Assembly (NCBI GenBank): GCA_947568835.1
Contig: OX387602.1
Span: forward strand, 1,830,570-1,894,569
Reading direction: 5' to 3'
DNA from: Protonemura montana
Taxonomy: Eukaryota; Arthropoda; Insecta; Plecoptera; Nemouridae
Length of the DNA: 64,000 bases
Position numbers and translations under genes: made by a program. Shown here one piece after another: positions 4,171 to 31,261 of the stretch. Position 1 is the first letter of the stretch. The number at the start of each line of letters is the position of its first letter. The notes under the pieces are model-generated. The model did no database searches, was not told the origin of the DNA, and worked only from the letters and a program-made list of their open reading frames with translations.

Positions 4171-7100
4171 CTTGTGCGGAGGCCGACGGCGATGTCCCCG
4201 CGGCTGCGGCGTCCGTCATCGTCGTGGCGGCGAGACGCAGCTGGTAGCTGGTGTTGGAGTCGCCGACAACGCTCACCACGGTTTGCGGTTTTGACGCGCC
4301 GCCCCGCGCTTTCGGCGCGGACGTCACCGTCGACGCACATGCGCCATCGCCGCCCCTGCCGCCAGGTTTTGATTGCTCCACGTGCTCCGGCCCCTCTGCG
4401 TTGTTCACAATGTTCTGTTCGAATGTCTTTGATATGTTTTTGTAATTGGAAAAGTCGCGCTGGGAAATGTGTTTCTTTTGCGTGCTGACTATGTCCATGG
4501 GTATGTCTTGTTCTAGTGTTTTGTTCGCGTTCTCTGTGGGAAGAGAAGGCAGTGTGTAAGAACTTGACAGGAGATTACATTACCAACTAACTGTGTGGAT
4601 TTGAATATAAGCGGAGAATTAGAAATTTTCCTGTAAGCGTTTCAGTCTCGAAAACACACGGACCGCCAAAGATGAAAATACAATTTAAGACTCGGCATTG
4701 ATTGTTCAATTATTAATTAAAACAAAATTACTTTGAAAGCTCTTTTCTCCAATGATGAGTTACTTAATGCATCCTCTAATTCCTCCGCCTGACTCTGTCT
4801 CTCTCTCTTTCTCTCTGTCTCTCTCTTTGCCTCTCTCTGGTTCTCACACTAACTCAACATCGATCCCATATTTCATCTCCCGGCATCCCGACAGATTTCC
4901 TTTCCTTTCGACCGGAGCGCCCATGTCGCCGACTCCGACGCAAAGTTGGTCTTTGCGAAATCACGATCGAGATACTTTGTGCAGAACACTGCCAGTCGAT
5001 GGCAGTAAAATCAGACACACTTTGTGCTGAGAATCTCTTTATACTCTGTCAGGTCTTGATTTTTTTTTTTTTTTTAAATTGCTTCATCCACTCGCCTTGG
5101 TTCCGATTCGAAACCTCGAAACCACTTCAGGGAACGGACATAGCAAGTGGAGCACCTGGCCGACTGAGATTCGGTGGTTGGGTCTGTGAACTCGATGCAC
5201 CATTATGACTGACCTTGAATGCTTAGAATGTATAAAGTTGCTATTTTTAGAACCATGTAGCGAATTTTCCATTGTGAGACAAAATCATTAAGAACGATCG
5301 TCATGCTTTACTAGCAGAGCAAATTTTATAAGCCACGTAGTTTGCATTTATGTGTGGACTTGAATCGAGGAGGTACGTGAACAAAGATTTGCCAGGCAGT
5401 CCCAAGTAAATATTTCAACGAGGTCGTAACGAACCAGGTTTTGTTCGGAAGACAAATTGGTTTGTTTAGCTGATGTATATTAGCTAAACCTTCCTATTGA
5501 AGTCTTGTATTATATGTACGAAACAGTAATCAAACAAATGTCACACTGGTAAGTTAGATATTTTCCAATTAAAGACACTTCAGGTTCAGGACTTTGCAAA
5601 GCCTTTGTGACATGTGTGCTATTTGTACGGATATATAATTTTAGAGAAATTGCTTTAGCGAAATATTTTGTGGTTCGTATTTAAATGTTAAATTTATCAG
5701 AACGTACTCCTCTAGGATAACCCAGCGACTCCATTTGCAATCATTCAATTTTACTCCACGATTTGTTATGCATATTTTTCATGCATAAAACTGTGTCATG
5801 CATGGCTTGACATAAAAATTTACAGTCCATAAAACTAGCTATCAAAGCAAAACGAAATTCTGAACCCCTGAACGCAGCCCGCAGAGCAAACTCGGCACCT
5901 CCTCCAACGCTTTGCAAATTTTGTTTTGCCTTTGCTCACAAAACACACGAGATCAAAATAAAATAATTAACCTCTTGGTGCAGTGAAAACGCTTTTCAGT
6001 GCAATTTATTAGGTCTAATGGAAAATTTTCCTCTCAAAAGAGACTTGTCAGAACAAGACTTAACATTCGGTTGCGAAACTCCGAACTCTAACCAAACACA
6101 AACATGAAATTAGTATATAAACCATTTATAACTCAGCATCAACGTTGCTTGAGTATATACGAAGCCTTTGCTGGCTGTGTGCTACAAAATTAAGCTCGTG
6201 CATCATCCTTATCCATTACCAGTAATATCTCGCGGGATTAGCCGAGGTCAGGCGCCGGCCGAGCACGGAGGTACCACGCTGTGTAAATCGAAATTTTCTC
6301 CGAATTTACCGAGCAAACTTTTAAATTGATTAAACTGTCCACGCCTATGACAATACTGGACCCTTCGTCAATTCAGCTCAAGTCATAAGGTATATATCTT
6401 GTAAACACTGGGGTCAACTTGGAACAAGAGGCATTAGTTCCAAGTGAAGACTTTAGCTGTATCTTGGCGTTCACAATTAAAAGCAAATGGGGATAATTAT
6501 GATTTAGACAAGAGGGTATCGAGTTGTTATAAAATTGATCCTGCTATTATTTTAGATGGACTTTTTATTCATAATTGAGAAAAACAACGAACTGGGTCGC
6601 ATGAACTGTTTTCAAGAAATACTGTTTCACTATCGCGTTTGAATGTAGCTCGATTAACGAATTAGAAAGGAGACCTATCGATAAAGATAGCAGGACAGAA
6701 AATATTTGGCAATGCTGATACAGGTAAAAATGTAGTCATTATATCAGTAGATACCATTATATTACCTATACACCTACCTACTGGCAGAACGTGTTAGCAT
6801 TTAGGCAGAAAAAAAAAGGTGTGTGTTTAAGTATGCGTTTCTATTGCGGAGAACCGTCAAGCGTTATTTTTATAACCACTCTTCAGGATTGGCTTGTAAA
6901 CCTTCCGCCGTAGCACGCACCAGTCGACGGAGATCACTCGACCCGGGTCTTTCCTAGCGTGCACTAATTCACTCGGGAGAGAGATTGGAAAGTACTCTGA
7001 TCTAATAACTGTAGTAGCTAAGCAAACTGAACGTTTTCTAGAGTTTAATACCTCGAGAGACGATGCCAGCCTTTATTTAGTGACACACTTTAAAAGCAGA

Positions 7101-7432
7101 ACAAATGAGACGCGATGGTGAGGTTGTAAATAATGCAAATGCATCGAAATTACTTTAGCAAATGCACTGCTCGGCGCGTTTATGAATAAACTATTGGCTT
7201 TTTTGTTGAAAGTGGTGGGTTTCAGAGGTCCCAGGATTTTAAATAGTTGGTTTGTTCTATTTAATTTCAACTTTCAACGCGCTGTCTTCGTTCGTTAGCT
7301 GCTCTGCCACGAGCCTTGTTAATTGACTTTTCATCACTCACGGTAAGGTTGCTCGGAGCCCCTGCTAAAGTGTTGCTGTATCGTTGAAGAAGAGGGGAAA
7401 CAGTCTCTGGCGTCTCCACAAATGCGCCCCAT
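4171..7432 (-). CDS. Gene A: uncharacterised low-complexity protein, two candidate coding exons
   Basis: I do not recognise this gene. Two minus-strand exons join in consistent phase 1: 7342-7440 (acceptor CTCCCTGCAG, donor ACC|GTGAGT, ATG at 7432 in the context GAACATGG) and 4171-4533 (acceptor TCTTCCCACAG, donor CAAG|GTAAGA). A second ATG at 4498 (CCCATGG) is an alternative start if 7342-7440 is untranslated. The predicted product begins MGRICGDARDCFPSSSTIQQ and continues into a Gln/Asn/Lys-containing segment, then a Gly/Ala/Ser/Thr-rich segment of high GC3 codons. No domain, signal peptide or membrane segment is visible. A GC-rich exon at 9795-10150 with a strong donor is a likely upstream non-coding exon. 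The model is supported by splice sites and phase agreement only. Confidence 0.42.
4534..7341. other. Presumed intron of gene A
   Basis: No gene is visible. It contains a CT-rich microsatellite (4793-4840) and a T run near 5060. Base composition is AT-rich and frames are short. Confidence 0.4.
4793..4840. repeat. CT/TC-rich microsatellite
   Basis: Imperfect pyrimidine repeat of CTCTCT, CTTTCT and CTGTCT units on the plus strand. Confidence 0.85.
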
Positions 7433-10150: not shown

Positions 10151-10847
10151 CCTACCCGTCAGGCGCCGGGAAGAAAGTGCGGCGTCTAGCGACACAGAGT
10201 TCGCATTATGGTCTTAGAATTTGTGTCGCGCCCGTGCAATTTTAGACCGCGCGCGCGGAGCACTCGAGGAAATTCGGTTATGGACGAGTGGAGAAACGTG
10301 ACTTATTTCACGTCGCACAATGAGAGATGCTGAAAGGGAAACTGAGTCGCAGATCTGTGCTCATCTCTGGCAGCAAATCGCCTTTGCTTTTAATACCTTG
10401 CCAAGGGAAACAGACTGGGATTTTTAAATTCTTGACATTTATCGGTCGTTCCCGGCCGTCCCCACTCAACCCCTCCAATCCCTCTCCCACGCGCAATCCA
10501 GCAGGTATCGGAAATGTTATTTTGGGCTTTACCTCGAGGACGTTGCCTGTTTTTATACAATTTGCTTGTTTTTCCGATCGTCGTTCCAGATCTTTCTCCT
10601 TTAATAAACCGAGCAATCCAGAAACTGCGATGCCATCATTAGAACTTCCCTATCTATGCCATCAAAATCTTTTATAATTTGACATTTTTATAATTTCTTC
10701 AAGAAAAAAAAACTTTTTTTTCGTGAGTGACAAGTCTAATCCTCTCTTGAGACTATTTTAAATAAGACTGCGATAAAGACTTCTCTCCTCTTGATGTTGC
10801 AATTTTAACAACAGGATATAAATCGAGTCCTTATCCTTGTGTCTCCA
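10151..10847. other. Intergenic flank left of the transposon
   Basis: No gene is visible. The transposon begins at 10,848, about 700 bp upstream of the GC-rich first exon of gene A. Confidence 0.5.
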
Positions 10848-10862
10848 CACTGCAAAAACAGT
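10848..10862 (+). repeat. Left terminal inverted repeat
   Basis: CACTGCAAAAACAGT, an exact inverted match of 18,215-18,229 apart from a short indel just inside. Confidence 0.9.
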
Positions 10863-10920
10863 ACTCTTGTTTCCAGCACATTGAGCGCTCTAAAGTTGCC
10901 ATCGACTTGAAGACATTAAT

Positions 10921-11040
10921 TTAGTCTGGTTTCAAGACTACTGATCCATCTGAATTTAAATTCAGAGATTCATTTTCTCTGGTTTGCAAAACCAGAGTTT
11001 CATACTCTCTGAATGGAGAAACCAGACAGTATGTCAGTCT
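10921..11040. repeat. Left subterminal palindromic repeats
   Basis: Several short inverted motifs built from TCTGG and CCAGA or AGTCT and AGACT, for example AGTCTGGTTTCAAGACT at 10,923 and a 19-bp near-palindrome at 10,978-10,996. The same motifs recur at the right end. They are likely transposase-binding sites, which is inference from the CACTA family. Confidence 0.7.
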
Positions 11041-11246
11041 GAAAATTTGGATTTGATTTGGGGATGGGATGGAATGAAAGGGAATGTGGTATCAATATCA
11101 ACACCGAATCTGCATGATATTTGCTCAACTTTATTCCTTTGGTTTTGTAACGAGATGGGTTATTACTTATTACCCATGCTAACAAAAGCATATAATACAC
11201 TATATGGTAACAAAAAAAAAACCGGTGTCAATAGTATAAAATACAA

Positions 11247-11544
11247 GCAGGTATCAAATTCACCTTCAACATAATGCCTTCAGTGGCTATTTGGTAGGAA
11301 TACGATTTAAAGAAAAAATAGCCATGTTATGATTATCAAATCTACTATAAGTCAACACAATTTGTCAATGGCTATTTAGAAAGTAAAATATGGGAGCAGG
11401 TATCAAATTCACCTTCAACACAATGCCTTCAGTGGCTATTTGGCAGGAATACGACTTAAAGTCAAAAAAAGTAAAGTTACGATTTCCAAATCTACTAGTC
11501 AACAAAATTCTTTAATGGCTATTTTGGCAGCAATTTAAGTAAAA
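11247..11544. repeat. 149-bp tandem duplication near the SAM gene 3' end
   Basis: Two head-to-tail copies start at 11,247 and 11,396 (GCAGGTATCAAATTCACCTT...), with the conserved segment AATGCCTTCAGTGGCTATTT in each. A third, partial copy (AATGCCTTCAATGGCTATTT) at about 11,947-11,966 abuts the stop codon of the minus-strand SAM gene at 11,968. The copies lie in the presumed 3' untranslated or downstream region of that gene. Confidence 0.85.
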
Positions 11545-11967
11545 ATAGTACCTAATGGTATAAGTAGAAAATCTACCTTAAGAACGGGCAAGTGCAAGCT
11601 CAGCAAATTCCGAAAAATTATTTTTTTACTATGTGTACTTCCAGTTGCCAAATTCCTCTGCCAAATTGTTTCTTATAGCAACACATTTTATTATATCTTT
11701 ATACAATTGAGTTGTTTTAACCAATGTGATAAGATAACTTATGAATGTATCCCTATACCTACATTAAAAAGCTTTTAGATACACATTTGTAAACGAACTA
11801 TCAAATTTGTTTTAAAAAAATGTATTGGAGAACAAAATTCTGTTATGAGAACTAAGCTGGCAGATAGCACAGCTGGAAGTATGATCAAAAACTCAATTTG
11901 TTGGAATTAGCGATGGCAGTGGCTGCGCTTGCCCGGTCTTAAACACAATGCCTTCAATGGCTATTTG

Positions 11968-14415
11968 TTACTCTAAATCTAAATATTCCTTAATAAACTT
12001 ATTGTATGTAAGTGTTCCCTGGAACTTTGTTCCAATCTTGGTTTTCAACATGTACAAGTGTAGAAATGTTAGAAACATACCATATGCAGAGGGAAAGTTT
12101 CTGTCCATTACAAAGTATGATCCAAGTAACACCAGCAGAAGCTGATGTGTCGATAGCGCGCCCGAATGGCACATGACGCGACCTTCGCATAGGAGCGCCG
12201 AACTGATGATAGTTTTTTCATCAAAATAAACCACCATGCACGGGCCCTGCACAGCTTCAGACGTCAAGTCAAACTCTTGACCGGCCTGCAACAAAGCACG
12301 ACATTAACGCCCTCATTTCAGCTGATAGTGCGGTATATGAATACATAGCTACAAAATAATGCCAATGTACCATTGCAAGCTCCAGCAAGGGGCGACTACC
12401 CTTTTTGGTGCGAGGATGAAGTCGGGAAAGCAGCCGGACGAATAAATTCATATTCTCCAAGTCGGCAAACTCGAAGTGGTCATCTTCTTTACCAAAAATT
12501 ACTTTCAGTTTTCTAGACACTTCGGCAAATGCGTCAGACGTGTTGGAGATATCTTGTATCAACCCGAAATCAAAAATCAACTGAAATAAAAATAGACAGT
12601 TAGTACCCTGATCTTTAGTAACCTGGCTTACAATTTCAATTTCAATTGAGTTAATGCCCCTACCATTTCTGTGTTTGATAAATGGGGAAATATATCCAGA
12701 ATATCTGAGCAGGTGGTTGCCGCAGCAACCACTTTTCGTCGTTCTTGCGCCGTTTGTACGAGCAAGAGCTTAATGTGTGGTCCCCCTCCAGCCCCCTTCT
12801 TCTTCAGCTCCTTCATCATATCGGACATTGGATCTTCAACTAGCTCAGCTGGTTTAGTAGTACTGTAAAAAAAAAAGTTAATTTCACATAACCTTTAGTA
12901 CCTACTATTATATTATGATACAACAGAAAGTTTAAAACAGTAAATTTTTTACCATTCGTGAATGGAGACCACTGCACTTTTGTGGACAATCTTTAGGTTC
13001 TTTGTTTTGCGGGATTTTCCCGCCAAAGTCCTTTTTTCTTCATAAACGTGATTAGTTCTGCACCTTTGAAGCCGCAATCGTACAGACACCTGTTAGAAGG
13101 GAAAAACCAATCGTAGACTTGCAGATAGATCCAAATAACCATTGCCTAGGTCAACAATTATATTTTTATATTAAAGGCTTTGACATGTAGGAGTGGCTTT
13201 AGGCAGTCACTTTAGGTATTTTTTATTAATATTACTGGCCCAATGACAATAATGATGGTATCACCGGCCATGATCGGTACCAAGTAGGTACCTACTTGCA
13301 TAAAAAATGACAACCACAGAAGATAAGTTGCAACGTAAACTTACATTTCGATGTTCTGACCCGTCTCCCAAAAATGGGTACTTGTCGACAACCGCCAAAC
13401 TGTAGTTTGAGTAATCAGTTGGTGTTGGGTTTCCATTTGTTATGCCCAACAGATGGACAGAGAGCATTCTTACAAGCTCTAAATGTAAATGGCCATTTCG
13501 CTCAAGGTCCCCTCGGCTATGGGCTACTTGCAGGTTATATGTAAGCTCTGGAATGGTCGTGGGGTATGGAATAACATCCTTAGTTTTCCTTTTCACATAG
13601 AAGGCATTTTTCTGTGCAAGTAGTCTTGGTTTGGGTGGAGTGTCTCTGGCAGCTGGTGATTCCACCCTGATAGTGGAGGCACTGGAGATGGAGCTCACAT
13701 CCTCAATGACACAATCAACAACATTTTCAGTTGCGAATGATGTTGTGGCCTAAAATCAAAGAAATCAAAGACCAGTCAGAAGGGCAAAAAGATGATAGGG
13801 CCAAAATATTTGACATTAGGTAAAAATTATTGAAAGATGATAGGTTACCTACAAGAATGCACCGTAACTTGAAATATCAGAACGAGAAGTTATGACAAGT
13901 TTCGTACCACTACTGGGATGTTGTCCATGATTACAATGGGCTCCGACTCTTGGTGCAACTCATGTAGTTTCTTCAAAAAAATTACACGCTTTCCGATGGA
14001 AGGTATAAGAACGGCAATAATATCTGCATGCCCGCTCAGGGCAGCCAGTGCCTCCCGGTTTATATCCGCCTCTGAAATATAAAATGGAACCACCGTGAAT
14101 GGTGGTGACTGGTGATACAGAGAGTGCGGCTACCTTTTCAGTGGTGGCATCACAGTTCAGTTACTTTGATCACCAGTAGGTAAGCTTTAAGGTATGTAAA
14201 CTTGCATACCCTGGTAACCCTAAACTAAGCCCAAGTAGGATACATAAGGACACACACCCAAGTAGGTTAGTTTAACCTAGAAGGATATGAAAGTTTACCA
14301 TTTGTTACAATGAATTAATGGTTATTCATCCTGCTTTACACTTACCTCGAAAAGATTCCACAAGTGATTCTAATCCCCACTTGTAGAGGATAGCTTCGGT
14401 GTAGTCGTCTGCCAT
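11968..14415 (-). CDS. SAM-domain (SAMD3-like) protein of the EnSpm transposon
   Basis: Seven exons on the minus strand: 14346-14415, 13908-14071, 13345-13749, 12953-13089, 12664-12862, 12371-12580 and 11968-12285. All introns (83-274 bp) are GT-AG, all phases agree, and the sum is 1503 nt, giving 500 residues and a stop. Residues 1-75 form a sterile alpha motif: MADDYTEAILYKWGLESLVE, then EADINREALAALSGH and a helix ending FLKKLHEL. A basic linker follows, and then a region like the fish SAMD3-like proteins, with a motif ending VVDKYPFLGDG near residues 195-210 and an alpha-rich C-terminus. SAMD3-like genes are often found beside EnSpm transposases, so I infer an accessory role in transposition, perhaps multimerisation. 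It shares a 279-bp divergent promoter region with the transposase. No stop or frameshift was found. Confidence 0.85.
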
Positions 14416-14694
14416 TATTTTGTACCCGAATCGCACAGTGGCTATACAAAACACTTCGAAGATTCCCAATTTCTGAGGCGACGCCGCTTCACCTGCTATA
14501 AGGGCTAGAATCGCTAAAAACGCGCGAAAATCGGTCGGAGCTGCTGTCTAGCTCAGCCTAGGTCGGATCAGCTGACCGTGTTGTCAATGTCAAGTAGCAC
14601 TAGCAGTCCGAGTTCGATCACAGGGTGCTTTTGTGTTATTTATTTTATTTAAATATTTTTAATAGATTTGCTTGCACGGTCACAATAAAATGAA
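14416..14694. promoter_or_regulatory. Divergent promoter between the two transposon genes
   Basis: The start codons of the SAM gene (14,415, minus) and the transposase (14,695, plus) are separated by only 279 bp. Both 5' untranslated regions and promoters must lie here unless there are undetected upstream exons. I could not identify a clear TATA box or initiator. Confidence 0.6.
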
Positions 14695-17670
14695 ATGGTG
14701 TACTCGTGTGAGATGTGCTTTTTCAAATCTGCAAGTAGAATTTCGACAGTGCAACACGTTGTGAGAAATCATAGACATGACTTAAATTTTTTGACGAACT
14801 GCAGATTCCCAGATTGTAATGCGTCTTATCGCAACTGGGTGTCTTTCAAATCGCATGTCGCTAGGAAACACAAATACGAAGAGGTTCTTGAACAAGATCA
14901 ACCTGGGCAGGAGCTGGGAGGAAACGTTGATGATATCTTTGTGAACGAAATACAATTGGGTGGTAAGTCTGACATTTCAGTTTTGAGTTGTAAACCTAAC
15001 TTCATAATATCAGATGATTCAGTTTAGCATAGTGCATTTTCATTTTATTATTGGTGTTTAACGACACACTGTTGTAGCATTTGGCCTATGACACTGGTCT
15101 ATTGACATGCATTTTCTTTTACCAGAACAACACGATTTTGAGGGTGCAGTGGAAGAGATTCCATTCCCAGTCGATGCCTTGAATGAGATTCGTGGGCAGT
15201 ATGTCAAATACATACAACTTGTGCGAGAGGGCTGCAATATATCGCAAAAGGCAACTGATACGATTACGGCAGGCATAATTCAATTTTCTGAAGATTCTTT
15301 GGCTGCTCTGAAGGTGTGTTAATTAAAGTTGTTCCATCTTGTTCTAAAAATTCCCACCTCGTAACTACCAACATGAACCAAATAGTATTTATTTAATCCA
15401 AAATCCCAATTCAAGGTAGGTATCGAAGTAATTCATTTTGGGCACTAGGACCTAGCACACTGCACTGTGTCTACCTATTACACTAATTTAATTTTGGTAC
15501 TGCCTTAGAACCCAAAGATAAGAATAAAATAGGTACCAATATATTGTAACCTTGCTGTACAATTCTCCGAATGAGTTCATGTTTTGAATTCAACTGTGTA
15601 TTTCAGGCACACTTACTTCAATCAGTTCAACCAGATGGGATGATCTCTTCTGCTAGCATCGAGCAAATATTTGAAGACTTCAAACTCTCTACAGCAATCG
15701 AGGATGTCAAAACTAAATATTTGCTCGATCAGTTTTTGGTAGAAAGTGGATTTTTAATTATGCCACAGTCTGTTAATCTAGGTTATGTTTGGTCTTGGGT
15801 TAAAAAACCCAGATTACACTTAGCCAGGAAGCATATAAACTTTTATGAAGTTTCATTTTTTGCTCAGCTCCAGCAGCTTCTAAATCAGGATGATATTTTG
15901 CATTGTGTGGACCACCCAAGGGCTGTGAATAACAAAGGATTGCTAACAGATTACCAGGACGGTACTTTTGTTAAAATGCACCCAATTTTTGGAAACTGTC
16001 CTGATTCCCTGATGATCATTCTTTATTATGATGATGTGGAAATTGTAAATCCCCTTGGGTCAAAAGTAAAGAGTCATAAGCTAGCCATGTTTTATTGGAC
16101 ACTTGGTAATATATATCCCGAGTGTCGGTCAACTTTGAAGGTTGTGAACCTCCTATGCATAGTAAAATCAGTACATTTACGGAAGTACGGCATGAACAAA
16201 ATTTTAGAAACTTTTGTAAGGGACATGAAAATACTAGAATCCTCTGAAGGTAAAATAATGTTAATAAAAGGACTTGAGAGACGTTTTCGAGGCTCCCTTT
16301 TAATGTTTACTGGCGACACTCTGGCAGCCAATTATGTGGGGGGCTTTAAAGAGGGGGTAGCTTTTGCCAAAAAACCTTGTCGATCATGTTTAGGCACTGA
16401 TGTTTCTACCAAAATTTACTTTAGAGAGAGCCAGTTTGTGCTTAGAGACAAAGTCACTCATTCGGAACAGTGTGCTGTGTTAAGTGAACCTGGCCTACCA
16501 AAAGATGCTGTGACATTTTGGTCAAAAGAGTTTGGACTAACAGGTAGGAGTCTTCTCTGTGATATCGAGACTTTCGATATCACAACATGTCTCGTTCAGG
16601 ATATTATGCATGTTATAATAGAAGGAGTTCTTGAAATGGAAATCAGACTTTTTTTGAAATACTGCATTGAGAATTTACATATTAAACTAAAAAAGCTTAA
16701 CAACGATATCTCTGGCTTCAATTACGAACATCTCGTGAAAGACAAACCGTCTCTCATAGAGCGGAGACACCTCGATAACAAACTTCGCCAGAACTGTGCG
16801 CAGTTAATAACTTTAGGAAATACTTTGCCTTTCATTGTGGGTGACTATTTGGAAGATGACAATGAGCGTCTAATGAATCTAACATTGTTGCTGCAAATTT
16901 TGAATTCAATGATGGCATTTGAAATCAGCATCGAAGATGTTGAGCTTTTGAAGACAATGATTGATGTTCATCATTCACAGTTTGTCTTGTTATACAGAGG
17001 TCCAACTCCAAAGTTCCATTATATGGTACATTTACCAACCCAAATTATGCTTTTCGGTCCATTACGTCATCAGTGGTGTATGAGGTTTGAGGGGGCCCAC
17101 TGTCGCTTCAAGCACATGGCTTCTGTTGTCAAAAGCTTTAAAAATATAGAGTTAACTCTGAGCTATAGGCACCAATCGCTGCGTTGTGCTGAGCTGTTTA
17201 ACTTACCACATGACCCGCCAAAAAATGTTCTTTGCAAGGGTGATGTTGTGCCACCTGGACGTTCCATAAAACTAGGTGACCATGAACACTTTGATTGTGT
17301 GGCACATAGTTTAAATGACTTTGATGTGGACAAAGTTATCTTAAAAACAAGAAACTTAGCTGTGAAGGGAACCTTCTATAAAATTGGCACAATTATCTTG
17401 TTAAATAGTAATGAAGATGATCTTCCCAAATTCGGGAAGATAATAGATATCATTGTTAGTAATAGCACAAAGCTTTTGCTTTATGAAAAGATTGAAACGG
17501 TTTGGTATGAACGCTCTTACAATGCGTACAAGGTAAACGCATCGTTTCCAAAAATCATTTGTGCTACACATGTTAATCAATTAATTCATCCCCATGCTCT
17601 TTCCATGTTTCGTGTAAAGAATGATTTCTACGTTCCTCTCCTCAATCATAGAAGAAATGAATTTTTCTAA
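14695..17670 (+). CDS. CMC/EnSpm-family transposase with two N-terminal C2H2 zinc fingers
   Basis: Three exons, 14695-14962, 15126-15313 and 15607-17670, joined by GT-AG introns of 163 and 293 bp, give 2520 nt and 839 residues. Exon 1 encodes two C2H2 fingers: C5-x2-C8-x12-H21-x4-H26 and C36-x4-C41-x12-H54-x4-H59, probably for DNA binding. The catalytic region follows: LYYDDVEIVNPLGSKVKSHK around D294/D295, a GDT motif with D389, CRSC (410-413), QDIMHVIIEG (D484, H487, E491) and a later HYMVHLP...MRFEGAH segment (H623, H627, E647). These are the acidic residues and Cys/His pairs expected of this DDE family, but which Glu is catalytic is uncertain. AATAAA follows at 17,693. The frame is intact, so the enzyme is likely functional. 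It should cut and paste the element by its 15-bp ends. Confidence 0.9.
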
Positions 17671-17692
17671 GCAGGATTTTCTAGTGAAATCT

Positions 17693-17698
17693 AATAAA
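17693..17698 (+). terminator. Polyadenylation signal of the transposase
   Basis: AATAAA 22 bp after the stop codon. Another AATAAA lies near 17,930. Confidence 0.6.
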
Positions 17699-17949
17699 TA
17701 TATGCACTGACCAACCTATCTCGAAATGGTACACTTTTATTGTTTTTGTCTTGTAAAATCATGTAATTAATGAATAATTTTATTCATTTATTAATGGAGT
17801 TTAACGATACCTACTGATATGTTGGATTTCAATAAAATTATAAAGACCATTCCAAATGAAATGTGTAATAACTCTAGCTGCAACAATTTGAAATTTCACA
17901 TGTAAATATTTTTTGAATTATAGTTGAAATAAATAAAAGGTGTTGACTT

Positions 17950-18229
17950 CAAGTCTGTCTTTTTCTGGTTATCAGACATCGGGGGTCAGTGTTGCAGCGA
18001 AGATGATACAAGATTAACGTTAAATCTGGTTACCAGACTATCTGAGTCATGGTCAGATAGATAAAATCTGAAAATCAGACTAATTCTATTGCTAAAACAC
18101 GATGAAGCATTTTTAAGACTTTACTTTTTAAAAAATCTCTGGTTTTAAGAGTGGAAAATAAAATCAGACTAAAGATATCTGCTTTTAAGATTTCAAAAGT
18201 CTTACATTCAGTACACTGTTTTTGCAGTG
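17950..18229. repeat. Right subterminal repeats and terminal inverted repeat
   Basis: Palindromic motifs such as TCTGGTTATCAGA (17,964), CTGGTTACCAG (18,026-18,036) and several AATCAGACT units mirror those at the left end. The terminal inverted repeat occupies 18,215-18,229. Confidence 0.75.
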
Positions 18230-18231
18230 CA

Positions 18232-28009: not shown

Positions 28010-29593
28010 TCACACAATATTTACAATCTCGTTATTAATAAACTCATTAACAGAATAAAAGCAGTTGCCCATTAAATAGTTTTTCAGTCTGCTTGAAAAA
28101 TCTTTATCGTTACTTTTACATTTTATATCCATTGGTAAATGATTAAATAATTTCACACCACATGCAATAGGTCCTTTACTGTAATTTATTGTTGTTAAGT
28201 CATATAAGTTAATCTTTGCCCTTAATGTATAATCGTGGTGTTTATCATTACTTTCTTTGGTTAAATACTTATTATTAATAACATACATCACAATAGTAAA
28301 AATATATAAGCATGGTAATGTCATAATTCCATATTTTTTAAAAAGTGGCTTAGTCGAATCTTTAAAATACACTCCTGGATTTGTCGGCTCATAGCTTGCA
28401 TTAGCCAGGTATTTGATGGCCCTCTTCTGTAGTCGAAACAATTTAATAATGTGTGGTGAATGACCCCACAAGACTATACCATATAGGAGATTGGAATGGA
28501 CATATGCAAAATAAACAAGTTTTGCTGTGCTGAAGTTACATAATTTTAAAATCCTTTTAACTAAATAGCACCCTGACGATATTTTCTGTGCAGTATTATT
28601 TATGTGGGTTATCCATTTCAGTCGATAGTCTATTGTCACACCGAGAAATTTCGTCTCATCCACTACTCTAATGCTTTTCCCATTCATATATAAAAGTGGT
28701 GTCATATAGCCATCTTGTTTGTCATTAAAACGAATAATTACAGTCTTATCAGTGTTGAGTTTAAGTTCATTTTTTAAGCTCCAATCAGTCATTTGATTTA
28801 CTGCCAGTTTGCTATTTTCTACTATGCAGCTAACATTTTCACTTACGAGAATTGTGGTGTCGTCTGCAAAAGTAGTCAGAGAGCCTTTTGTCACCGCAGT
28901 TTCCAGTTCATTTATGTAGATTATGAACAATATCGGAGCAATTGAACTACCCTGGGGCACGCCTACATTTATTACCTCTTCATCAGAATAAGTGACTCCT
29001 ATTGTTTGATGTGTTATCTTCACTACCTGTTTTCTATTTCTAAGAAATGTTTGAACCCAATTGTTAGCCACTCCGCGGATGCCCATACCTTGTAGTTTCA
29101 TTAATAGCAAGTCGTGATTTACCAAATCAAACGCTTTTGTGTAGTCAAAGAAAATACCGTAATTCCTGCTATTCATTTGCATGGATGACATTAATCGATT
29201 TACGAAATTTGATATTGCAGTCGTAGTGGATCTATCCTTTCTGAAACCATGTTGGCATTCACTTAATAACCCATACCTCTCTAAAAATGCAACTAATCGA
29301 GCACAATACGCATTTTCGAGTAGTTTTGAGAATACAGATTGGAGTGCTATTGGCCTGTAGTTATTCAGTGTTGTTTTGTCACCCTTTTTATATATCGGAC
29401 AAACAATCGACAATTTTAATGCTTCAGGGAAGACTCCTGTCGCGAACGAAGTGTTTATTATGTATATAAGAGGTTCCGCTAAATATACAGCAGCATTTTT
29501 GGTGGTGTACTGTGCTGTGCATATTGCTATTTCACGTTCATATGAATAACAATTCAGTTCAAAACCTGTAACGCTTATAATTAATTTCTCGTT
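28010..29593 (-). CDS. Non-LTR reverse transcriptase, N-terminally truncated
   Basis: The frame is open from 29,593 to a stop at 28,010 (527 residues), with no initiating Met required because the 5' part of the parent ORF2 is missing. Motifs in order: ATGVFPEALKLSIVCPIYKK entry motif, NNYRPIALQSVFSKLLE, HGFRKDRSTTTAI, FFDYTKAFDLVNH, GVPQGSSIAPILFIIYINEL, the catalytic FADD box, and the thumb/connection region with ETKFLGVTID. The C-terminal portion carries the LINE-type LPCLYIF and GVKLFNHLP segments. No stop or frameshift is visible, so the insertion is fairly recent, but without the endonuclease it cannot mobilise itself. The exact clade (CR1, Jockey or a relative) needs a tree. Confidence 0.88.
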   Translation of the reverse strand, partial: NEKLIISVTGFELNCYSYEREIAICTAQYTTKNAAVYLAEPLIYIINTSFATGVFPEALKLSIVCPIYKKGDKTTLNNYRPIALQSVFSKLLENAYCARLVAFLERYGLLSECQHGFRKDRSTTTAISNFVNRLMSSMQMNSRNYGIFFDYTKAFDLVNHDLLLMKLQGMGIRGVANNWVQTFLRNRKQVVKITHQTIGVTYSDEEVINVGVPQGSSIAPILFIIYINELETAVTKGSLTTFADDTTILVSENVSCIVENSKLAVNQMTDWSLKNELKLNTDKTVIIRFNDKQDGYMTPLLYMNGKSIRVVDETKFLGVTIDYRLKWITHINNTAQKISSGCYLVKRILKLCNFSTAKLVYFAYVHSNLLYGIVLWGHSPHIIKLFRLQKRAIKYLANASYEPTNPGVYFKDSTKPLFKKYGIMTLPCLYIFTIVMYVINNKYLTKESNDKHHDYTLRAKINLYDLTTINYSKGPIACGVKLFNHLPMDIKCKSNDKDFSSRLKNYLMGNCFYSVNEFINNEIVNIV

Positions 29594-30307: not shown

Positions 30308-31261
30308 TTTCAACCGAACGGTTTGGCATGTTAGAAACACCAGTTCTCATGAGATCACCGACGTTAAGCAACACTGCGCTGGGTCAGGTATTGGATGGGT
30401 GACCATCATACACATGACCAGTTCTGTTCGGAAGAGAGGTTGGAGGGATGAAAGTTAAACAACACTGCGCTGGGTCAGGTATTGGATGGGTGACCATCAT
30501 ACACATGACCAGTTCTGTTCGGAAGAGAGGTTGGAGGGATGAAAGTTAAGTAACACTGCGCTGGGTCAGGTATTGGATGGGTGACCATCATACACATGAC
30601 CAGTTCTGTTCGGGAGAGAGGTTGGAGGGATGCAAGTTAAGCAACACTGCGCTGAGTCAGGTATTGGATGGGTGACCATCATACACATGACCAGTTCTGT
30701 TCGGGAGAGAGATTGGAGGGATGCAAGTTAAGCAACACTGCGCTGGGTCAGGTATTGGATAGGTGACCATTATACACATGACCAGTTCTGTTTGGGAGAG
30801 AGGTTGGAGGGATGAAAGTTAAGCAACACTGCGCTGGGTCAGGTATTGGATGGGTGACCATCATATTCATGACCAGTTCTGTTCGGGAGAGAAGTTGGAG
30901 GGATGAAAGTTAAGCAACACTGCGCTGGGTCAGGTATTGGATGGGAGACCATTATACACATGACCAGTTCTGTTGGGGAGAGAGGTTGGAGCGATGAAAG
31001 TTAGTACAGCAACTTCATTCGCCTTGCTTATCAACCTCTCGACAGCATGGATTTGTGGAGGAATCCTGTTGTTCGCGTTGTACCGTCCTTCGGAAGGTAC
31101 GTTAAGTTGGTGCTCTTCGACAGGAGTAGGCTACATGCCGGCACCGGGTTTCTTCTCCTCCCTTCTAGGCTAGGTTAGGTTCATCATCACCCACTCGTTC
31201 ACCGACGCCATTAGATCAGTACCGCTTGGCCAGATGTCAAAACAGTGCGTCGTTAAACACC
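30308..31261 (+). mobile_element. 5S-rRNA-derived SINE with expanded internal array
   Basis: The segment starting near 30,308 aligns by eye with animal 5S rRNA along its length: CATGTTAGAAACACCAGTTCTC, then GATCACCGACGTTAAGCAAC and GGTCAG.TATTGGATGGGTGACC. The last two contain the 5S internal promoter boxes. It is followed by a non-5S body and tail shared with a second copy at 36,822-37,230, including CTCGACAGCATGGATTT and GTCCTTCGGAAGGTACGTTAAG. This is the arrangement of SINE3-class elements. Unlike the second copy, this one has the 5S part repeated in tandem. Boundaries are approximate. Confidence 0.8.
30363..31003 (+). repeat. Seven 91-bp tandem units derived from 5S rRNA
   Basis: GTTAAGCAACACTGCGCTGG or close variants recur at 30,363, 30,454, 30,545, 30,636, 30,727, 30,818 and 30,909, an exact 91-bp period, with a truncated eighth start at 31,000. 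Each unit holds the 5S A-box-like and C-box-like segments, followed by about 45 bp ending GAGAGAGGTTGGAGGGATG. Units differ by only a few substitutions and no indels. Confidence 0.93.

Follow-up and report, generated by a model that had tools for sequence, protein, structure and literature searches.

Organization of the element

The window analysed here, a stretch of 64,000 nucleotides from Protonemura montana (Plecoptera, Nemouridae; contig OX387602.1 of assembly GCA_947568835.1, positions 1,830,570 to 1,894,569), contains a complete DNA transposon of the cut-and-paste type, which was read base by base and occupies positions 10848–18229 (7382 bp). It is bounded by terminal inverted repeats (TIRs) of 15 bp that are 100% complementary, and it carries two divergent, spliced genes, one encoding a transposase of 839 amino acids (aa) on the forward strand and the other, gene 2, a protein of 500 aa on the reverse strand. 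The element and its copies, referred to as family 1, constitute a new and very young family of a known transposon type. The features, with their positions in the window, are as follows:

10846..10847: left target duplication, CA (one of 15 independent insertions, with matching 2-bp flanks in all)
10848..10862, forward strand: left TIR, CACTGCAAAAACAGT
10863..11167: left subterminal stretch, with exact TCTGGTTT at 10925 (+), 10978 (+), 10989 (−) and 11019 (−)
11968..14415, reverse strand: gene 2, exons 14415–14346, 14071–13908, 13749–13345, 13089–12953, 12862–12664, 12580–12371 and 12285–11968; 500 aa
14416..14694: interval of 279 bp between both start codons, presumed divergent promoter region
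14695..17670, forward strand: transposase gene, exons 14695–14962, 15126–15313 and 15607–17670; 839 aa
17910..18214: right subterminal stretch, with TCTGGTTT at 18138 (+) and near matches at 17964, 18025, 18072, 18161 and 18178
18215..18229, reverse strand: right TIR
18230..18231: right target duplication, CA

The ten exons join in frame without conflict, and each of the eight introns (two in the transposase gene and six in gene 2) has GT-AG borders. The initial annotation had described two stop-free genes with ten exons free of phase conflict, a description that holds and is matched by the exon structure of a second family. Family 2 (L044, C11:3170525–3177433, 6909 bp) has CACTGCAAAAA ends and a TA duplication, and it shares with family 1 the start of the TIR, the divergent gene pair and the exon structure. 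The two transposase introns correspond in place, and the exon lengths imply identical phases; the six gene-2 introns correspond in both position and phase. The gene models are therefore supported by the second family, the proteins of which are 60% (transposase; 62% for exon 3) and 41% (gene 2) identical to those of family 1.

The exact 15-bp TIR sequence is present at 35 sites in the host genome (258.5 Mb, 34 contigs), 33 of which are ends of 17 family-1 copies, the other two being single sites (C14:5329036 and C16:7844031); the same pattern read backwards, used as a control, occurs at no site in the genome. These perfect repeats bear out the earlier claim that both ends could be defined base by base. 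Inside the TIRs, two stretches of 305 bp contain seven copies of TCTGGTT over both strands and five of TCTGGTTT, numbers reached in 4 of 500 and 3 of 500 dinucleotide shuffles, respectively. The TCTGGTT count thus exceeds that of nearly all shuffles, as expected of the subterminal repeats initially reported.

Copies, insertion sites and age of the family

The first 200 bp of the element matched at least 16 places in the genome and the last 200 bp at least 17, the window copy included, all with 100% identity; in this comparison, fixed beforehand as a test of the initial annotation, no copy had different ends. Fourteen of the 17 copies are full length and three are damaged. Among the 13 other full-length copies, ten match the window copy at every one of its 7382 bp, two deviate from it at one position and one at two, which gives a total of 4 differences in 95,966 bases compared. 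The near identity of the 17 copies therefore indicates a very recent spread. Assuming about 3e-9 mutations per base and generation, 4 differences in 95,966 bases would date this spread to the last 10^4 or so generations of the host.

Fifteen insertions have distinct flanks (14 tallied together and a copy on C12, the flanks of which were read separately), and all 15 are bordered by a matching 2-bp duplication, which is TA in 11 cases, TT in two, TG in one and CA in one. The CA duplication initially described is therefore present at the window copy but is not typical of the family. Two full-length copies on C14, L027 and L028, have common flanks and were therefore counted as a single insertion. 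Among the best 40 of 624 candidates scored, sequences spanning the joined flanks without the element were found for five of the 15 insertions, that of the window copy not being one of them. These sequences belong to related repeat copies that lack the element and do not represent alleles of a single site: the match is gap-free and identical over 160/160 bp for L029 (C15:474156), reaches at best 96% for L026 and for the C12 copy and 95% for L033, and is 89% or less, with gaps, for L038.

The common flanks of two pairs (L027/L028, and the right flanks of two copies near C12:12.8 Mb) might suggest that segmental duplication or an error of assembly, and not transposition, gave rise to the copies. 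However, 15 insertions differ in their flanks and are bordered by matching 2-bp duplications, and for five junctions there are related sequences without the element. These findings rule out such an origin for 15 of the 17 copies and make it highly implausible as an account of the family.

No shortened derivative with the exact 15-bp TIR at both ends was found in the genome, in a search that short forms with altered ends would escape. Furthermore, a search with transposase exon 3 (36 matches from 44 candidates) listed nothing between about 99–100% and 62% identity. The lack of observed derivatives and the gap in identity from about 99% to 62% together suggest that the family arrived, or was restarted, very recently. 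In the latter case, the genome would have received no element from another species, and a single survivor of an old, nearly lost resident family would have expanded again. The genome does contain older related lineages (family 2, with 62% identity in exon 3, relatives near 30%, and the relic L045), indicating a long history of the clade. However, no decayed family-1 copies were present among the matches listed between about 99% and 62% protein identity, and the shortened derivatives are likewise missing. Both would be expected after long residence, and we consider vertical reactivation possible but rather unlikely. Carriage by a virus or a bacterial assembly was rejected, as neither a transposase relative nor the exact 22-base left end was found in the viral and bacterial contig collections, which hold no animal genomes and say nothing on transfer between animals.

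The initial annotation considered the element possibly active. Recent activity is indeed likely, given the near-identical and mostly intact copies: the transposase is uninterrupted in 12 of the 13 other full-length copies and gene 2 in all 13, with a single amino-acid change in one. Several observations nevertheless weigh against activity at present. The transposase of L035 has a stop at residue 281, and the copy at C1:5.12 Mb is interrupted in the transposase gene by a 4.1-kb DNA transposon flanked by a CACT duplication. The copy at C12:12.813 Mb contains a 6.46-kb insert, with frames resembling an endonuclease and a reverse transcriptase by eye, lacks about 125 bp beside this insert and includes a stretch of 681 bp with 99.1% identity. 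The second C12 copy, which has the same right flank, lacks the left end (element bases 4171–7382 at about 12844720–12847931), and a gene-2 exon-1 match at C12:12837849 suggests that more of this copy lies further left. Given the stop in L035 and the interrupted C1 and C12 copies, activity at present is thus possible but uncertain. The 4.1-kb transposon (L042/L043, C1:5.12–5.13 Mb) has TIRs starting with GGGTCATTCCATGTGTAATCACTCAC and a frame of 863 aa.

The transposase and its classification

CMCT elements are defined by the D, D, C(2)C, H(3)H and E motifs of the transposase, 5'-CA..TG-3' termini and duplications of 2–5 bp (PMC12730594). In family 1, CACTG..CAGTG termini were found at the 33 ends of the 17 copies, the duplication was 2 bp in 15/15 independent insertions and the transposase displayed the D-D-C(2)C-H(3)H-E order; the short subterminal repeats in both orientations characteristic of EnSpm/CACTA elements were also present. 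The candidate catalytic residues, assigned by motif and not by structure, are D294 or D295, D389 and E647, with CRSC (410–413) and H623-x3-H627 between D389 and E647. The five motifs are conserved with family 2, and the positions of D389, C(2)C, H(3)H and E also align in an older relative on C2. Two C2H2-like fingers were recognized by eye in the N-terminal region. The motifs of the predicted protein fit the CMC/CMCT clade (EnSpm, Mirage, Chapaev, Transib).

The domain and structure searches lend this classification no clear backing. Pfam yielded zf-C2H2 and DUF4218 below the cut-off only (DUF4218: E 0.0053, 17.1 bits versus 27), with no match to Transposase_21 (TNP2) at E<=10, and the structure prediction for exon 3 alone was unusable (mean predicted local distance difference test score, pLDDT, of 31). 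The searches of solved structures made for the element gave no useful match (one with E 1.5, in addition to the gene-2 match given below). Nevertheless, we consider it very probable that the element is an autonomous EnSpm/CACTA-like CMC/CMCT cut-and-paste transposon, early in an invasion or burst. The initial annotation had also proposed an intact EnSpm/CACTA-like (CMC) element, in agreement with the 14 full-length copies with 0–2 differences, the 15 sites with 2-bp duplications and the five related empty sites. The 839-aa protein would bind the ends of the element through its N-terminal fingers and would cut with a DDE active site, and insertion would occur at staggered 2-bp TA-like targets.

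Gene 2 and its possible role

As judged from sequence comparison, gene 2 is a conserved, co-inherited partner of the transposase. Between families 1 and 2, the proportions of synonymous (pS) and non-synonymous (pN) differences were 0.77 and 0.24 for the transposase and 0.83 and 0.43 for gene 2. Both genes have been under purifying selection, because non-synonymous differences are fewer than synonymous ones, which are near saturation in both genes. At C1:18.64 Mb and C2:2.90 Mb, gene 2 was listed with only part of the transposase. L045 (C16:28.04 Mb) is a relic that retains a decayed gene 2 and an end like that of family 2. Its interpretation as a domesticated host gene was ruled out by in-frame stops in the matching stretch and by the family-2-like end nearby.

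Gene 2 might alternatively be a passenger, that is, a captured host gene or a frame without a role in transposition, since it has no known domain above the cut-off and no homologue above the threshold in the third lineage described below. However, its position, orientation and six intron phases are the same in family 2, its non-synonymous differences from family 2 are proportionally far fewer than the synonymous ones, and a decayed gene 2 is found near the family-2-like end in L045. Furthermore, no separate host gene was listed beyond the family-1, family-2 and L045 places. We therefore regard a passenger origin as improbable, and gene 2 as a partner of the transposase.

The N-terminus of the gene-2 protein is suggested to be SAM-like, its first 65 residues following the SAM pattern when compared by eye with the consensus. 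The protein may also resemble vertebrate SAMD3. A third lineage (C5:12.997 Mb and C2:28.20 Mb) has a fragmented transposase about 30% identical to that of family 1 and a separate SAM-like frame, which lies on the same strand and starts downstream of the transposase at a distance of at most about 75 nt (12999157–12999528 in L047 and 1330–1461 in L048). Its SAM_2 match was below the cut-off (E 0.0047, 17.5 bits versus 20.5), and the two copies are 64% alike over 44 aa. In families 1 and 2, gene 2 lies head-to-head with the transposase and is conserved; in the third lineage, where the gene-2 profile found nothing above threshold, it is the SAM-like frame that lies downstream on the same strand.

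The searches with gene 2 itself recovered no SAM domain above the cut-off. Pfam gave no match for family 1 and, for family 2, SAM_2 only (E 0.58, 10.8 bits versus 20.5); profile comparison with hhalign gave a probability of 1% for a SAM set of five sequences and a gene-2 profile of two sequences; and comparison with PDB gave no meaningful match (one DARPin, E 0.65). In the excerpts of the open-licence literature covered, which excludes Repbase and subscription journals, we found no SAM-domain or SAMD3-like partner of EnSpm/CACTA elements, and the term SAM domain does not occur in the available part of PMC9004415.

As a second factor, the gene-2 protein would use its SAM-like N-terminus to oligomerise on the subterminal TCTGGTT repeats, and would help to pair the ends or regulate the element, in a role proposed to be like that of maize TnpA. 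A broader proposal, which we put forward tentatively and consider doubtful, is that animal CMC transposases repeatedly have a SAM-like protein as their second factor, polymerising on subterminal repeats to pair the ends as a counterpart of TnpA. A gene 2 that proved to be both required and SAM-like would provide animal CMC elements with a defined partner protein.

Relationship to known elements

The element resembles EnSpm/CACTA transposons in its CAC..GTG termini, short TIR, subterminal repeats, D-D-C(2)C-H(3)H-E order and two proteins, but differs from them in its 2-bp, TA-rich duplication and CACTG start. The plant EnSpm/CACTA elements have a 3-bp duplication. A duplication of 3 bp is also described for fungal EnSpm (PMC12730594). 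In maize Spm, the second protein is an alternative splice form (PMC1636069), whereas that of our element comes from its own divergent gene. The animal TRC elements (SmTRC1 and the TRC elements of Tribolium and Aedes) and Spongebob are CACTA relatives with 2-bp duplications (PMC1636069, PMC4298943), a trait common to them and the element. However, TRC TIRs begin with CCC (PMC1636069) and that of the element with CACTG, and the published eumetazoan motif [LVI]-D-x-[LM]-H-x3-L-G corresponds to Q-D-I-M-H-x3-E-G in the element. The ESTA group comprises EnSpm-like fungal transposons with TA duplications, three families of which carry TET/JBP (PMC12730594). The TA duplication and CMCT motifs are shared with the element, in a comparison by description only, but ESTA is known from fungi and the target in family 1 is other than TA in 4/15 insertions.

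The suggestion in the initial annotation that intact CMC elements are uncommon in arthropods was too strong, as CACTA-type elements have been published for Tribolium and Aedes (PMC1636069) and ten CACTA families for Daphnia pulex (PMC2884549). The ten Daphnia families mean that such elements are not new in arthropods. The least ordinary part of the element is gene 2. The element provides a useful system for asking what the second protein does in animal CACTA-type transposons, owing to its near-identical and mostly intact copies, mapped targets, sister family and conserved second gene, and it allows an invasion to be watched before shortened derivatives appear.

Other features of the window and genome

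A 5S rRNA match (57.9 bits) at window positions 30313–30433 overlaps a tandem array (30363–31003) of seven 91-bp units, which seem to repeat part of this match. A long frame on the reverse strand (28013–29593) with an RVT_1 match (E 8e-32) is probably a fragment of a retrotransposon without long terminal repeats (non-LTR), and a run of 60 G residues (1261–1320) is possibly an assembly artefact. Elsewhere in the genome, C34 and the 25.9-Mb contig C4 carry COX1 matches of equal score, each with 8 in-frame TGA codons. Under the invertebrate mitochondrial code, in which TGA is read as tryptophan, the C4 sequence (L046, C4:5.76 Mb) adjoins frames resembling COX2 and ND2 by eye; a further, partial COX1 match lies at a distance of 16 kb. 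These features suit an invertebrate host, an arthropod being plausible from the gene order, and the arthropod host named in the initial annotation is in part borne out by them. L046 would be explained by a recent insertion of a large piece of mitochondrial DNA or by a join made in the assembly.

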